Shown: positions 31,961 to 38,402 of the stretch, in pieces
How positions within the stretch are numbered: the first letter of the stretch is position 1
Layout of the letters: each line of letters opens with the position of its first letter
Assembly (NCBI RefSeq): GCF_001276715.1
Contig: NZ_LIUQ01000005.1
Span: 62,001-126,000 of the forward strand
Source of the DNA: Planktothricoides sp. SR001
GTDB taxonomy: Bacteria; Cyanobacteriota; Cyanobacteriia; Cyanobacteriales; Laspinemataceae
Direction: 5' to 3'
DNA: 64,000 nucleotides
The notes under the pieces: model-generated
Seen by the model: the letters and a program-made list of their open reading frames with translations, nothing else
What the model was told of the DNA's origin: nothing
Database searches by the model: none
Program-made: the position numbers and the translations under genes

Positions 31961-32179
31961 ATGGCTGTTGAAAAAATGAATTCTTCCTCAAGCTTGGCAG
32001 AAGTTGTTGATCGCATCCTTGATAAAGGGGTGGTGGTCGATGCTTGGGTACGGGTATTTCTCGTCGGTATCGAGTTGTTATCGATCGAAGCACGGGTTGT
32101 CATCGCTTCCGTCGAAACTTACTTGAAGTATGCTGAGGCAGTGGGTTTGACGTCTCAATCTGCCGTTCCAGCCAACTAA
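31961..32179 (+). CDS. gvpA: Gas vesicle structural protein GvpA
   Basis: The 72-residue main shell protein of gas vesicles. It starts [20 protein letters not shown] and has the GvpA core [20 protein letters not shown]. Where cyanobacterial GvpA normally has DAWVRVSLVGIE, a phenylalanine replaces serine. The ATG at 31961 follows a good AGGAG site; the longer frame from 31892 has no support. It is the first gene of the gvpA-gvpC-gvpN-gvpJ order. Confidence 0.96.
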
Positions 32180-32298: not shown

Positions 32299-33567
32299 AT
32301 GGCTCTTTTTAATGAATGGCAAGCCCAAAGACAGCAGCGTCAGCAAGAGTTACGGGCTCGCCAAAAACAAGTGAGTGAGGATTTGGCAGTTTGGCGAGAA
32401 AACCGGGTCAATATGAGTCGAGAAATGCGCCAATCCCTCAGTGATTATTACAGCCAGATCCAGGTGCAAACGGAACAATTTTTAAACAATTGTCGAGAGC
32501 AGCGCTATCAAAATAGTCAGCGATTTATGCAGGCATTAGATGAGTTTGCCAATATTTTGGCGGCAGAAACTAGGCAGTTTCTCAGTAATATAGCCCAAGA
32601 ACGCTCGACAATGGCTCAAGACCAAACAAAAGTATTGCAGGCTTTTCACTATCATCTCAACCGTTATGCGATCCAGTTTCTCCAAGAATGTCATTATCAG
32701 CGAATGGATATGAAAGCTGAATTGACTGAATATTTGGAGCAGTTTATGCACCAACTGTCGTCAGATGTGGCCGCTTATTTGCAAGAGTTTGATTGGCAAC
32801 AACAACAAGTTGCCCAAGAGTTACAGGAAACTTTCCTGGCCGAGCGTCAGCAGCGATCGCAAACTCTGCAAACTTTATACGATAGCTTTGCTAATTTACG
32901 TTGGCAGCGGCAACAAGAAATCGCCACTTTACAAGCGGAAATGTGGGGCAATGTTAAAGAATATCGCGTCAATTTGTCTAATCAGGTTTGGGGCTATATG
33001 CCGACACCAACCCAGGTACAATCTCCAGGGGGCGATCCTGGGGGCGACCACAGAGGGGACGCCCCTACGAAATCGATCCCGTTTGCTCAACCCGTCCCTA
33101 GTCGAGTTACTGCGCCTACTGCACCAGCGATCGCCTCTGCACCCGTGACGAAACCTCCATCAGCAGTGTCCCCAACCCCCAGGACACAAACCCCACAACC
33201 AGAGACCCCACCAAAAGACCCAGAAACGGTCCCACCAAAGGCAGACTGGCCACCGATCGCCCCTCCGGAGACCCCACAAACGGACTCACCAAAGGTGATC
33301 GCGCCACCGATCTCCCTTTCTGCGGCGCCCCCGGCCGCCGGACTATTGGCAACCCCCGCGCCATCCGTTGCCACCCCAAGTACGACCGCGATCGCCGACC
33401 CTATGCAGCAAGCAGTCTATGATTACCTGAAGCAAGTAAAATCGGCGCGAATTAAAGATATTGAAGAACGGTTACAGATCAACCGCATTCAAACCGTTGA
33501 TATCCTCCAATCCCTGATCGATCAAGGATTAATTACCCAAAATAATCGGGACTATCTGATTGTGTAA
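32299..33567 (+). CDS. gvpC: Gas vesicle protein GvpC with Pro-rich linker and C-terminal winged-helix-like module
   Basis: A 422-residue protein. The first ~225 residues consist of about four GvpC-type ~33-residue helical repeats rich in Gln, Arg and Leu (FLNNCREQRYQNSQRFMQAL, FLSNIAQERSTMAQDQTKVL, FLQECHYQRMDMKAELTEYL), which would wrap the vesicle shell for strength. Residues 235-365 are a Pro/Ala/Thr linker; its start (GGDPGGDHRGDAPTKS) is encoded by a dispersed GGGGCGA palindrome read in frame. Residues 370-422 form a winged-helix-like module (VYDYLKQVKSARIKDIEERL) also present in GvpN of this locus. Known cyanobacterial GvpCs are usually much shorter, so the tail is unusual. Confidence 0.88.
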   Translation: MALFNEWQAQRQQRQQELRARQKQVSEDLAVWRENRVNMSREMRQSLSDYYSQIQVQTEQFLNNCREQRYQNSQRFMQALDEFANILAAETRQFLSNIAQERSTMAQDQTKVLQAFHYHLNRYAIQFLQECHYQRMDMKAELTEYLEQFMHQLSSDVAAYLQEFDWQQQQVAQELQETFLAERQQRSQTLQTLYDSFANLRWQRQQEIATLQAEMWGNVKEYRVNLSNQVWGYMPTPTQVQSPGGDPGGDHRGDAPTKSIPFAQPVPSRVTAPTAPAIASAPVTKPPSAVSPTPRTQTPQPETPPKDPETVPPKADWPPIAPPETPQTDSPKVIAPPISLSAAPPAAGLLATPAPSVATPSTTAIADPMQQAVYDYLKQVKSARIKDIEERLQINRIQTVDILQSLIDQGLITQNNRDYLIV

Positions 33568-33850
33568 ACTTGTGTAAACTCAAGGGGGAAAAATTTATTC
33601 AATTATGTAGGGTGGGCAATGCCCACCAAATTTTATGGATATCTATAACCCTTAGATAACACTTAAATTTGCCCAAATCATTCGGTTATTGATTGATTGC
33701 TCCTGAGACGCGGGGTGAGAAAAAATCAACCGTCAAAAGTAGCAAACAATAAAACAGTTAATTCACAGATTACTAGCAAAAATTGATTCACTAATTACTG
33801 TAAACTGTCAACCAATAACAGTTAACCAATCATCACCGTTCGGAACCAAA

Positions 33851-35296
33851 ATGGCTACTGTCATCCAAGCACGTCCAAGACAATTTGTTAATACACCAGC
33901 GGTTGAACGCCTTGCCAAGCGAACCCTGAGATATTTAAACTCCGGCTTTTCCATCCACCTACGCGGCCCAGCGGGGACGGGTAAAACTACTCTGGCGCTG
34001 CATTTAGCCAACTTAGTAGGGCGTCCCATGATGATCATTTTTGGCGATCGCGAGTTAAACTATTCGGATTTAATTGGCAATAAAAATGGTTATAATCGCC
34101 GAAAAGTGGTGGATAATTTTATTCATAGCGTGGTCAAGATTGAAGATGAATTAACACAAAATTGGAATGAGGAGCGGTTGACTTTAGCCTGTAAAGAAGG
34201 GTTTACTTTAGTTTATGACGAATTTAACCGATCTCGCCCGGAAGTGAATAATGTTTTTCTCTCGGCATTAGAAGAAAAACTGTTAATTTTGCCTTCGGGG
34301 GAAGGGCAATCAGAATATATTCGGGTTAATCCCCATTTTCGGGCAATTTTTACCTCTAACCCCGAAGAATCTTGCGGAGTGCATGGCACTCAAGACGCGC
34401 TATTAGACCGATTGGTGACGATTAATATGCCTGATCCGGATGATCAGACCCAACAAGCAATTTTGGTACAAAAAACCAAGATCGATCCGGAGTCTGCCCT
34501 GCGAATTGTGCAAATTGTCAAAGCATTTCGGGACACGGTGAAACAAAGTCTCCCGGAAACATCTCATCACGCAAAAAGGGCTAAACATTCTTCGCCTTTA
34601 CGTTCTTGTTTGATGATTGCAAAAGTCAGCAAAGAACATAATCTGATGGTGCAGGAAAATAACCCGGATTTTCGAGAGGTTTGTACTGATGTGCTGCTGT
34701 CACGGACTAATTTAGAGTGGGCAAAAGCCCAGGCAATTTTGGATCAGTTTTTCGAGTCTCGAATTACCCCGGTTTCTCTAGCCAAAGTTAATAATTTGCC
34801 CCTGAGAGATGGCTTGCCTAATCAGCGAGTTGAGAACCCGTCAACAACGCCAAACCCGGCTGAGGTGAATCCCTCAGAACCTTTAATTGTTGAAGCACCG
34901 AATTATGATGAGAATGGTCATAAATTACACATTTCCCTGGGTTCGGAAAGTTTTAAAAATGGCAAAGCACTGCTGAATGGAAAGTCCAATTCCCCGCAGT
35001 CAGAAAATTCCGCTTTCGGCAAGCGATCGCTTGCCGAAACAGGATTAAATCCTGCACAAGCCGCACAAGCTGCACAAGCTGCACAAGCTGCACAAGCTGC
35101 ACAAGCTGAACAAGCTGAACAAAAAGTCTATCACTATTTGCAGAAATCTGAAGGAATGCGCGTTTCGCAAATTTCTCAAGCCCTGGGATTGAATCGATTT
35201 CAAACTATTGATGCCCTGCGATCGCTGCTGAAAAAGGGTCTGCTCATTCAACGAGACGATCGCCTCTATGTTGCTTCACAGGATAAATTATCTTAA
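33851..35296 (+). CDS. gvpN: Gas vesicle AAA ATPase GvpN with C-terminal extension
   Basis: A 481-residue protein. Residues 1-300 are the GvpN MoxR-like ATPase that assists vesicle assembly: Walker [21 protein letters not shown] near 38, Walker [18 protein letters not shown] near 118, and sensor [27 protein letters not shown] Pro/Asn/Ser-rich stretch and an (A-Q-A)n run encoded by 9-bp tandem repeats lead to residues 425-478, a winged-helix-like module ([20 protein letters not shown]) matching the GvpC tail. Family members I know end near 270-380 residues. gvpJ starts 2 nt after the stop. Confidence 0.93.
35054..35116. repeat. 9-bp tandem repeat inside gvpN
   Basis: Six copies of GCACAAGC(C/T) starting at 35054, then two GAACAAGCT/GAACAAAAA variants, encode repeated Ala-Gln-Ala. 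Because the unit is 9 bp, changes in copy number would alter linker length without changing the frame. Confidence 0.93.
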
Positions 35297-35298
35297 CG

Positions 35299-35553
35299 AT
35301 GACACAAAGTTCTATTAACAGTCCAAAACGCGATCAAATTACCACATCAACCCCCGGAAGTACCTTGGCAGATATTCTCGAACGGGTGTTAGATAAAGGA
35401 ATTGTGATTGCTGGTGATATTTCCGTATCTGTGGGTTCAACGGAATTGCTAACGAGTCGGATCCGTTTGTTAATTGCTTCCGTGGATAAAGCCAAAGAAA
35501 TTGGGATTAACTGGTGGGAAAGCGATCCTTATTTACAGCGTTTTTCAAATTAG
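35299..35553 (+). pseudogene. gvpJ: Gas vesicle protein GvpJ, 5' part, truncated by an IS630-type insertion
   Basis: The frame begins MTQSSINSPKRDQI and carries the GvpA/J core (LADILERVLDKGIVIAGDIS, then RIRLLIASVDKAKEIGINWW and ESDPYL). At ESDPYL the insertion sequence begins (35536), so the last codons QRFSN and the stop come from its terminal repeat. Beyond the element (36558) the frame resumes as SSQAVSLIESNQRLL, as expected of full GvpJ. The 84-residue product keeps the conserved vesicle domain but loses the C-terminal extension. Confidence 0.9.
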
Positions 35554-36557
35554 TGAACCACAATCATGTATAATATAATGAATTTTTAAGCTCCCTATCT
35601 ATTTCTGATCATGCCAGCCGCATATTCTACCGATTTACGCAGTCGATTCCGAGATGCTTACCAAAATCAATTAGGGTCTCAACGTGAGATGGCGAGGAGA
35701 TTTGACGTAAGTTTAACTTTTGTGAGAAATTTATTACGACACTATAGAATAACCGGAACAATCACCCCCAAACAATATACTAGGGGTCGTTCACCCAAAA
35801 TCCCTGAGTATATCGGGGATTTAATATTATCAAAAATTGAGAAACAACGAGATATACTGATTAAAGAGTTGTGCGATTATGTGGAGTAAAAAACAGGAAT
35901 TAAAGTTAGTCAATCTACCATGTATCGGTTCTTAATAAAAAATCGCTTAACTCGCAAAAAAAAGTCTTTACGCCTCGGATCAAGAAAGAGGCGATATTCA
36001 ATAGGACTGTTATGATTATCGAAAATGGCTAGACAAGCAAGATAGATATTAATAATATGGTATTTGTGGATGAATCGGCAGTAAATTTAGGGATGACTCG
36101 TTTGTATGGACGAGGAAAAATTGGGGACTGGGTGGTTGAACTATGTCCAAGAAATAAAGGGAAAAATATTAGCGTAATCGGTGCAGTAAGTGAAGAAATG
36201 GTTTAATTGCTTCAATGACTATAGAAAGGAGTACAGATTCGGCAGTGTTTCAAACATATTTTGAGTCAGTATTAGTGCCTAATTTATTGCCAGGAGCGTT
36301 GGTGTTAATGGATAATTGTTTATGAAAATGTCAAAGTCAGAAAAGCTATAGAATTGGCGAGAAGCTTGTATTTTTACCTATTCTCCAGATTTATCCCCGA
36401 TAGAATTATGTTGGTCTTTAAAGAATTTCTTCGTTCTAGTAAAGCTAGAACTAAAGAAGCTTTAGATATAGCAATTAATGAAGCTTTCAGTAAAATTACG
36501 GAATCTGATGTTTTTAATTGGTTTGAGCATTGTGGTTTATTCATTTGAAAACCGCTG
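35536..36557 (+). mobile_element. IS630-family insertion sequence
   Basis: A 1022-bp element. The terminal arms CAGCG(T/G)TTTTCAAAT..AACCACAAT (35536-35564 and the complement of 36529-36557) match at 25 of 29 positions. The sequence is flanked by TA on both sides (35534-35535, 36558-36559), the usual IS630 target duplication. It contains a broken transposase and interrupts gvpJ. Confidence 0.9.
35611..36548 (+). pseudogene. IS630-family transposase, several stops and frameshifts
   Basis: The N-terminal helix-turn-helix region is intact (TDLRSRFRDAYQNQLGSQRE, then RRFDVSLTFVRNLLRHYRITG). The frame then breaks after ELCDYVE at 35889, and later pieces appear in other frames, ending YSPDLSPIELCWSL and a C-terminal helix WFEHCGLFI. 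The last DDE acid (E of SPIE) is visible. The transposase is inactive. Confidence 0.9.
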
Positions 36558-36690
36558 TAAGTAGCCAAGCGGTTTCTTTGATAGAATCCAATCAAAGGTT
36601 ACTCTAACAAGTGAAGAATTTGCAAGAAGAAGTGCAAAGTTTGAAGGCGATCGCGGCTATAGTTAATTCAAAGGTGCGATTCGTTGGAGC
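36558..36690 (+). pseudogene. gvpJ: gvpJ continuation between the two insertion sequences
   Basis: Joining the codons before 35536 to the sequence after 36559 restores ESDPYL-SSQAVSLIESNQRLL, then a TAA, then QVKNLQEEVQSLKAIAA, a coiled-coil-like tail expected of GvpJ. The TAA inside is an additional nonsense mutation. The IS66 element enters after GTTGGAGC at 36690. The sequence after that element (38411 onward) keeps the frame only briefly. Confidence 0.75.
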
Positions 36691-38402
36691 GTAAGGATTC
36701 AGGTCAGGGGCTTGACAGGAGGGGATTTTGGGGTAAAGTGTTGATATGAATCTAGATAATGTGCCACAGCTACCAGACAGGAAAACTCTTGAACAGTTGC
36801 CCCAGAGACAACTGGTAGATATGCTATTGGCACAGCAAAAAGTAATAGAGGGGTTGATCGAAGAAGTTAAACGCCTTAAAACCTCTCTAGGGCTAGACAG
36901 TAAGACATCATCGAAGCCTCCCTCTACAGACGTTCTCAAGAAATCCGAAAAACCCAAAAAACAATCCAACGCAGAAACCAACCCAGAGCCAAAACGTTTT
37001 CCGGGGGGGCAACCAGGCCATAAAGGTTCGACTCGGAAAGGATTTAATAGAATTGACCGCATAGAGGAACTGATTCCACAGCATTGTCACCACTGTGGCA
37101 GCAATAGTTTTGCGGACGAGCCAGTAGGGGTCAAAGTTCAACAAGTGGCTCAACTGGTAGAGCGCCCCATCGAAGTAGTCGAGTATCGTCAGAGATGGTG
37201 TCGATGCAATAGCTGTGGGCAAGAAAGTGCTGGAGCATGGCCGACGAGGGTTATTCCCGGTCAAGACTTGGATGCCGGTTTACAAGCATTACTCGGATGG
37301 CTCGGTTGCTATGGACAGATGTCCTATGAAAAACAAGCCGAACTGGTGCGAGAACTGGGTCAAATCGAGGTGGGCGTAGGAACTCTGGTTAAAACCAACG
37401 AGCGAATTGCCACCACAATCACCAATGCGGTCAATGAACTCGTGGAAGCGCTACCACAGCAGTCATACCTCCATGTCGATGAAACCCCCTGGATCGTTAA
37501 AGGGGTTAAAGAGTGGTTATGGGTAGCTACCAATCCGCATTTTTGTCTGTTTCATGCAGCCGATACCCGAGGCCGAGTCGAACTGGAAACCAAATAGCGG
37601 GAAACACTTCGACGGCGTACTGGTGAGTGATGATTTCAAGGTGTATAACGGGTATCCGGTGGCGGCTCAACAGAAATGTCTGGCACATCTGAGACGCCAT
37701 ATCCAGAAATTGATTAAATTTGGCAGTCCGGTTCAAGTCACCATTGGGGAGACAAACATTCCTTGGTAGATGAGGCATTTCGGCAGCATCATCAGTGGCG
37801 CGAACATGGGGATAATTCTTCATACCAGACCTGGGCGACGCAGTTTCGGTATCGGGTGGAGGTAGCGCTCAAAGAATGGTTCCCCAAAGCGGGTTACGAG
37901 GCGGGAAAGTTGCTGCGGAATTTAAAAGAAAAAGCCGAACAATGGTGGTACTTCCTAGAACACCCCGAAGTTCCTCCAGATAATAATCTAGCAGAAAGAG
38001 CTTTACGATTAGCGGTGACTAAACGTAAAGTTAGTGGGGGTTCTCGCTCTATGGAAAGATTTGAGAACACAGCTAAATTATTGAGTGTGGCTCAAACCTG
38101 TCGATTTCAGGGACGCTCACTGATGCAGTTTTTCCAAGAAGCACTTTCGGCTGATGCTCACTCAGGATTACCTCACCCCACGCTCATTTCTCCGGTGCCG
38201 ACGTAGGTTATCCGGGGTATGAATGTTATTTAACACTCGTCCATGAAGCTAAGTTTTTATCCTGATTGTCCCGATGATAACTTCGGGTTGTTTTCGTTTG
38301 ACTTAATTAATTGATAACGGTAGAGAACCCTAATTTTTCATCTCTGCTGACCCTCGCTCGCTCTGTCTCATAGACGACGCATTTTTTGACCTGAATCCTT
38401 AC
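36691..38402 (+). mobile_element. IS66-family insertion sequence with 8-bp target duplication
   Basis: A 1712-bp element with terminal repeats GTAAGGATTCAGGTCA at 36691-36706 and its exact complement at 38387-38402. The flanking 8-bp duplication GTTGGAGC occurs at 36683-36690 and 38403-38410, as is typical of IS66. Perfect ends and duplication indicate a fairly recent insertion, although its transposase gene has since been broken. Accessory TnpA/TnpB genes are absent; only the tnpC-type gene is present. Confidence 0.95.
36746..38206 (+). pseudogene. IS66-family transposase (TnpC type), two frameshifts
   Basis: The first 283 codons contain a leucine-zipper-like start, a zinc finger (CHHCGSN.., CRCNSCGQ) and the first catalytic Asp (YLHVDETPW). 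The frame is lost near 37590; the second Asp (GVLVSDDFKVYNG) is in a frame starting near 37560, and the final Glu (DNNLAERALR) is in a third frame from 37763. All three DDE residues survive but not in one polypeptide. Confidence 0.93.

Follow-up and report, generated by a model that had tools for sequence, protein, structure and literature searches.

In Halobacterium salinarum, the gas vesicle protein GvpC ends in a globular C-terminal domain (aa 329-382) that follows its rod of repeats. Passages of the study describing it (PMC9372576) report self-binding of this domain (relative fluorescence 20.7) as well as its binding to GvpN; GvpN also pulls down the GvpC monomer, and the authors suggest that it competes with GvpC dimerisation. 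How the GvpN ATPase acts on the growing gas vesicle is presented as an open assembly question in the part of PMC11445434 that concerns it. Here we analyse the gvpC and gvpN genes of Planktothricoides sp. SR001, which lie in a window of 64,000 nucleotides (contig NZ_LIUQ01000005.1, positions 62,001 to 126,000). The two encoded proteins end in homologous tails of ~55 residues, each predicted to form a winged helix and each held on a long linker; the cyanobacterial GvpC thus resembles that of Halobacterium in carrying a globular domain at the end of its repeat rod. We see about an even chance that this is a docking module, self-associating in GvpC, whose copy on GvpN docks on the coat.

Both genes are intact open reading frames (ORFs) on the forward strand, gvpC at 32299..33567 (422 aa) and gvpN at 33851..35296 (481 aa). 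A sequence-only reading of this DNA had taken them for a shell reinforcer and an AAA ATPase. GvpC lies between gvpA and gvpN and has a 33-residue periodicity, with four QFL/AYL motifs exactly 33 residues apart (at 60, 93, 126 and 159), its match to TIGR02641 being sub-threshold (15.9 bits, cut-off 18.8); GvpN matches TIGR02640 over residues 12-285 with 361.4 bits, above the cut-off of 266.8, and also AAA_5. The body of GvpC (32299..32994), made of 33-residue helical repeats, ends with a VWG motif at residue 232 and is followed by a Pro/Ala-rich linker (residues 233-367; 32995..33399) and the tail (residues 368-422; 33400..33564). In GvpN the AAA+ domain (residues 12-285; 33884..34705) is followed by a linker with Ala-Gln repeats near its end (residues 286-420; 34706..35110) and by the tail (residues 421-475; 35111..35275).

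When the full-length proteins were aligned by BLASTP, significant similarity was restricted to the tails (20/49 identical, 41%; E 6e-9), and a search of all 7.07 Mb of the genome with the GvpN tail matched, at E <= 10, only GvpN itself and the GvpC tail (E 2.4e-9). These two results put the likeness well beyond chance and confirm, by sequence comparison, that the ~55 C-terminal residues of the two proteins are homologous, as the sequence-only reading had claimed. Two details of that claim need trimming: the alignment covers 47-49 residues rather than the full ~53, and the GvpN linker of locus L006, from a same-genus relative, has no Ala-Gln repeats. A Pro/Ala-rich linker is a general trait of GvpC (36% P+A in the 69 whose body end could be placed).

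AlphaFold2, given for each tail an alignment of four sequences (window and L006 only), predicts a winged helix in both cases. The GvpC tail has a predicted local distance difference test (pLDDT) of 95.9 and a predicted template modelling score (pTM) of 0.81, with the order H-E-H-H-E-E (H, helix; E, strand); for the GvpN tail the values are pLDDT 89.6 and pTM 0.75, with the order H-H-H-E-E and a short end helix. Both predictions thus show the three helices and following beta-hairpin wing of a winged helix-turn-helix. In VIA-align the first row for both tails is ZitR (5yi1), with Z 11.4, a root-mean-square deviation (rmsd) of 0.7 and 56 aligned residues for GvpC, and Z 10.8, rmsd 2.1 and 59 aligned for GvpN. 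AF2008 (1sfx) and Zalpha domains (Z about 10-11) come just behind for both; because rows within Z 1 of each other are tied, the comparison shows the fold and not the closest relative. Together, the models support one common winged-helix fold for both tails. Matches by sequence are weaker: a Protein Data Bank search with the tail profile returned weak matches only, the best being AF2008 at E 0.046, and the same database searched with an Anabaena-type GvpC (L084) gave no match. In Pfam, TrmB (PF01978, cut-off 25.6 bits) matches the window GvpN tail with 26.7 bits and GvpC with 16.8 as a whole protein and 22.1 as tail alone; among ten diverse tails tried, TrmB was the best family for all ten and above its cut-off for four. 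Since Pfam scores the window GvpN tail above the cut-off, some GvpN tails are likely to have been annotated automatically as TrmB-like.

The tails therefore share their fold, and weak to moderate sequence similarity, with winged helices of the TrmB/MarR/ArsR type (PF01978 and kin), but differ from them in architecture, being joined through long linkers to a shell protein and to an AAA+ ATPase and lacking the TrmB effector domain. GvpN also resembles RuvB, MCM and Cdc6/Orc1 in having a winged helix C-terminal to an AAA+ domain. In those proteins the winged helix stands close behind the AAA+ domain and typically binds DNA, whereas in GvpN the intervening linker has a median length of 68 residues (range 13-402, counting from residue 290) and the same domain is also found on a non-ATPase partner.

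A profile built from four tails (window and L006) matched 122 of 388 genomes sampled from the cyanobacterial class (E <= 0.01), many of them with two matches about 1.3 kb apart. GvpN was found in 179 of the same genomes at E <= 1e-30 (170 above its cut-off) and in 119 of the 122 tail-matching ones; the matches in the other three (G247, G415 and G452; tail E 0.002-0.006) are taken as background. We examined 112 further stretches (12 + 100), giving 113 GvpN with that of the window, a non-random set of one or a few per genus drawn from the best matches listed, with other genera missing. Scored by a six-frame search with the iterated tail profile alone, 63 loci had both tails, 13 the GvpN tail only, 12 the GvpC tail only and 25 neither. 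Correction of G490, in which gvpC is displaced about 6 kb from gvpN with its tail retained (L088, L180), and of L152, whose contig stops inside gvpN so that its GvpN tail is not scorable, changed these counts to 64, 12, 11 and 25, with L152 set apart. In the mirror-tree, tree and stripe tallies below L152 is counted as GvpC-only, except that the values it affects (20/22 cells; 0.639, n 11, p 0.64; the 15 changes of the tree) were recalculated with L152 removed; L038, from the same species as the window, was left out of the mirror-tree analysis (except the n 64 group), the tree and the stripe test, and the second GvpN of L171 was left out of the tree. The gvp locus of G413 (L090) scored as having neither tail; in the genome-wide search G413 gave one weak match (7.0e-4), its position not being among those listed. 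Body and tail are split within the GvpC linker at two loci, by a frame change at L114 and by a stop codon at L163.

The 150 tailed ORFs at these loci comprise 76 GvpN and 74 others, never more than one other per locus. Of the 74, 73 lie immediately upstream of gvpN, where each is the longest ORF; the exception is a 69-aa ORF at L163 that encodes the tail and continues the gvpC frame behind the linker stop codon. No third kind of tailed protein, and thus no tail on another Gvp protein, occurs among the ORFs at the loci examined. Conservation of the module in both proteins thus extends over many cyanobacterial families and is not a local feature of this genome. Neither of the two findings that the sequence-only reading had named as refuting it, a lack of a common fold or a purely local duplication, was obtained. 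Outside the cyanobacteria the tail was not matched at five annotated plasmid GvpN loci (Spartinivicinus, Methylosinus, Octadecabacter, Halobacterium and Methylocella), nor at a Paenibacillus locus (L007) whose weakly similar ATPase (25% identity) is perhaps not GvpN; the GvpN of a Nostoc sphaeroides plasmid does match, and a plasmid search with a tailed GvpC (L104) gave no match. The nearest tail is of GvpC type for 74/75 GvpC tails and of GvpN type for 70/75 GvpN tails. We reject local duplication or gene conversion as the source of the likeness, as two tails from one locus resemble each other no more closely (0.442) than two from different loci (0.437).

Some loci show other C-terminal arrangements. 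At L119, L124, L125, L129, L133, L140, L145, L150 and L154, GvpN lacks the winged helix yet has a C-terminal extension past the AAA region, often acidic, and the GvpC tail is kept. At L100 and L103 the end of gvpC encodes a short similar motif (QDLVE..V.DL) instead of the tail, in another frame in L100.

The tail is the more conserved end of GvpC, with a mean pairwise identity over 66 loci of 0.58 against 0.36 for the body; at the 63 loci with both tails the values are 0.57 for the GvpC tail, 0.42 for the GvpN tail and 0.74 for the AAA domain. The GvpC linkers, like those of GvpN, vary widely in length (median 73, range 32-204 in 69 GvpC; 135 in the window), and such long, variable linkers are, as far as sequence can tell, the anatomy of a tethered binding domain. 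Within the GvpC tails R27 is invariant, E20, V31, L34 and L37 are nearly so, and a QRDR wing occupies 45-48. A conserved stripe runs along helix 3 at positions 27, 28, 31, 32 and 35 (R, F/V/I, V, D and R): in the 75 GvpC tails, position 27 is R/K in all 75, 28 is hydrophobic in 70, 31 is hydrophobic in 73, 32 is D/E/N/Q in 73 and 35 is R/K in 66. Judging from the pattern of buried positions and from the DNA contacts of Zalpha domains, these five positions should be exposed, and they may form a binding interface.

The stripe bears on whether the tails bind nucleic acid, tethering GvpC-coated vesicles and GvpN to DNA or RNA, or acting as moonlighting regulators of their own operon. Among the solved structural neighbours listed, winged helices that bind DNA or RNA form the majority (ZitR, AF2008, MarR types, FtsK gamma, Zalpha and SelB), and nucleic-acid binding would also fit the best Pfam family, TrmB, and the conserved arginines at 15, 27, 35, 46 and 48 of the GvpC tails. 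However, the mean net charge over 50 positions is only about +0.9 (GvpC) and +0.6 (GvpN), and the helix-3 sites that would face DNA are the hydrophobic 28 and 31 together with 32, which is acidic in 70/75 GvpC tails; K/R occurs at 28, 31 or 32 in none of the 75. The acidic residue counts as weak evidence, because TrmB proteins also have one near 32. Zalpha domains bind Z-DNA through an Asn and a Tyr of the recognition helix and a Trp of the wing, and our hand alignment presumably puts V31 and R35 of the tail at the positions of ADAR1 N173 and Y177. By charge and stripe, nucleic-acid binding would be less favoured than docking, and we consider it improbable.

A tree of the AAA domains (111 rows) requires 15 changes for presence of the GvpN tail, with or without L152, and 6 for presence of the GvpC tail. 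Eleven tail-less rows fall on one side of the midpoint, and all tailed rows are among the other 100. A simple reading is that both tails already existed early on the larger side of the tree and that repeated losses followed, more of them affecting the GvpN tail; gain and loss are not strictly separable, since the root was not inferred. One clade of 15 rows (support 100, starred), which we call Nostocaceae-type after one member (G168), has the GvpC tail in no row, the GvpN tail in nine and neither in six. The corresponding arrangement on Nostoc sphaeroides plasmid p4 (WP_118171794.1 and WP_118171795.1) has orthologous gvpC and gvpN in the same order as the window, but its GvpC stops after the repeats and its GvpN tail, although present, has an altered stripe (I at 28, T at 31). 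The single-contig genome G037, listed under the same species as the window, holds two more gvp loci (L045 and L046; C1:6.09 and 6.23 Mb), whose GvpN belong to the Nostocaceae-type clade and whose upstream GvpC-like ORFs lack the tail; this suggests that a second kind of cluster was gained horizontally.

How the GvpN tail changes when its GvpC counterpart is missing bears on the docking reading. In the 63 GvpN tails that have a GvpC tail at their locus, positions 28 and 31 are hydrophobic in 113/126 cells; in the nine Nostocaceae-type GvpN tails, whose GvpC lacks the tail, this holds in 4/18. The ten core positions are hydrophobic in 89/90 cells of the nine and in 614/629 of the tails with a GvpC tail. 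Because the core has stayed hydrophobic while 28 and 31 have changed, the fold seems to have been kept and the helix-3 face released. Closeness to the consensus follows the same pattern, the GvpN tail scoring 0.555 (n 63) with a GvpC tail and 0.455 (n 12) without (Mann-Whitney p 2.5e-4), whereas that of the GvpC tail is independent of the GvpN tail (0.660, n 64, against 0.639, n 11; p 0.64). The stripe of GvpC tails without a GvpN tail is hydrophobic in 20/22 cells (21/24 including L152), as expected if GvpC tails also bind each other. The difference between the two tails points to a partner of the GvpC tail in addition to the GvpN tail, another GvpC tail being the simplest candidate, and to joining the GvpC tail as the role of the GvpN tail.

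Several observations weigh against docking as we propose it. The other three GvpN tails without a GvpC tail (L100, L103 and L149) keep the stripe (6/6). The p value for stripe loss (4e-9) treats related sequences as independent; the loss is essentially confined to one clade and so amounts to one event, the lower consensus score of GvpN tails without a GvpC tail also comes mostly from that clade, and for joint gain or loss of the tails the tree offered few independent pairs (3 and 8 on starred branches), too few for a test to be informative. In a partial mirror-tree analysis of 63 loci, no co-variation of GvpC and GvpN tail distances remained once the AAA domain was accounted for (partial r 0.083, permutation p 0.12), and, as the 0.442 and 0.437 above show, tails of the same locus are not closer than tails of different loci. 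Twenty-three loci have one tail, 11 of them that of GvpC and 12 that of GvpN. The haloarchaeal domain, for its part, is said in the same passages of PMC9372576 to contain a zinc-finger motif rather than a winged helix, and to bind GvpF, H, I, L and O as well as GvpN. The mirror-tree test and the GvpC tails without GvpN tails indicate that simple one-to-one docking between GvpC and GvpN is not the whole story. The suggestion of the sequence-only reading that the tails dock with each other keeps the stripe result and the Halobacterium data in its favour, with the mirror-tree result against it, as well as the GvpC tails that persist where GvpN has none. Its other two suggestions, nucleic acid or a common regulator as the partner, may still apply.

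The same facts could be read as the work of a common third partner that both tails bind without touching each other; it might be a host protein or another Gvp protein, for instance GvpF/L, J or K. Such a partner would account for the same stripe on both tails though either can be lost alone, and for the negative mirror-tree test; it also has a parallel in PMC9372576, whose authors report for Halobacterium that GvpL interacts with every Gvp protein apart from GvpA and that the C-terminal domain of GvpC has F, H, I, L, N and O as partners. What it does not explain is why the GvpN-tail stripe was lost in the clade without a GvpC tail, and we regard it as unlikely. Alternatively, GvpC tails might pair between neighbouring vesicles or ribs and so pack gas vacuoles, the GvpN tail being the diverging leftover of an old fusion. 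The long tethers, the higher conservation of GvpC tails (57% against 42% at the same 63 loci) and the 15 changes against 6 on the tree would fit this; but a leftover would hardly keep its fold core (614/629) and stripe (113/126) beside GvpC tails, and we think this explanation very unlikely.

On the docking reading, the two tails would be one winged-helix domain serving as a protein-docking module. The tail of GvpC, the protein that covers the ribs, hangs on a flexible tether and would most likely bind other GvpC tails through the helix-3 face predicted to be exposed, and GvpN would carry a diverged copy of the domain on its own tether and bind the GvpC tail with it. Through this binding the ATPase would reach the growing shell, and contacts between tails may be opened. 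More tentatively, and with the chances somewhat against it, GvpN may carry the GvpC self-association domain as a mimic that replaces tail-tail contacts, and an AAA+ ring bearing several such copies on tethers would thereby stay on the shell, opening or loading GvpC during growth; haloarchaea would have the same wiring through an unrelated zinc-finger domain. By analogy with Halobacterium, we propose that cyanobacteria may use that wiring through a domain of their own: the Halobacterium locus has no tail match and its GvpN (347 aa) no tail. There too gvpC and gvpN overlap by 4 bp, as they do in 27 of 61 measured cyanobacterial pairs.

The gvp cluster of the window itself looks like a decaying copy, and tail conservation is for that reason to be judged on other loci. 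Its gvpA (31961..32179, forward strand), encoding the major shell protein of 72 aa from the ATG at 31961, has a PF00741 match above the cut-off (G000:C138:93991-94107); it has F in the motif VRVSLVGIE where the same-genus relative and the other cyanobacterial GvpA compared have S, and a same-species genome has the same substitution. The operon is broken after gvpN (35299-38206). A gvpJ-like gene (35299..35553, forward strand; PF00741, 54.9 bits) is cut short at its 3' end, encoding 84 aa against 131 aa in L006, and is immediately followed by a short transposase-like ORF (35611-35889; no match in Pfam) and by a split IS66 transposase (36746-38206). GvpF/L had no match on the contig of the window; a search of the genome for GvpK also gave no match, but its control matched nowhere either.

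Other cyanobacterial gvp clusters hold two further proteins. Several clusters have, inside or next to them, a gene for an ATPase of ~600 aa that contains the motif GPPGTGKT twice and looks CDC48-like by eye (L180:6795-8630, L041, L103 and, in pieces, L100). Repeated CxxCxGxG motifs, as in a DnaJ-like zinc finger, mark a small protein encoded downstream of gvpN in L006 (8378-8761, directly behind gvpJ), in L041 (2683-3078) and at the start of L043.

Among the matches listed in the open literature on gas vesicles, subscription papers being outside the scope, there is no description of a winged-helix or C-terminal domain of this kind in GvpC or GvpN; the sequence-only reading likewise knew of none in gas vesicle proteins. 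In PMC7204071, the passages on C-terminal tails concern GvpF, and the passage on GvpN names only the AAA domain. Nostocaceae-type (Anabaena-type) clusters, the usual laboratory models, are without the GvpC half of the pair, which would explain how the module went unnoticed. A conserved domain shared by the coat and the ATPase offers a concrete and cheap test, which would involve two proteins of 55 residues and a few positions on their surface. The GvpC tail is also a natural attachment module at the end of a protein used to functionalise vesicles for imaging. Finally, the distribution of the tails suggests that the well-studied Anabaena-type GvpC is, in this respect, a reduced form.

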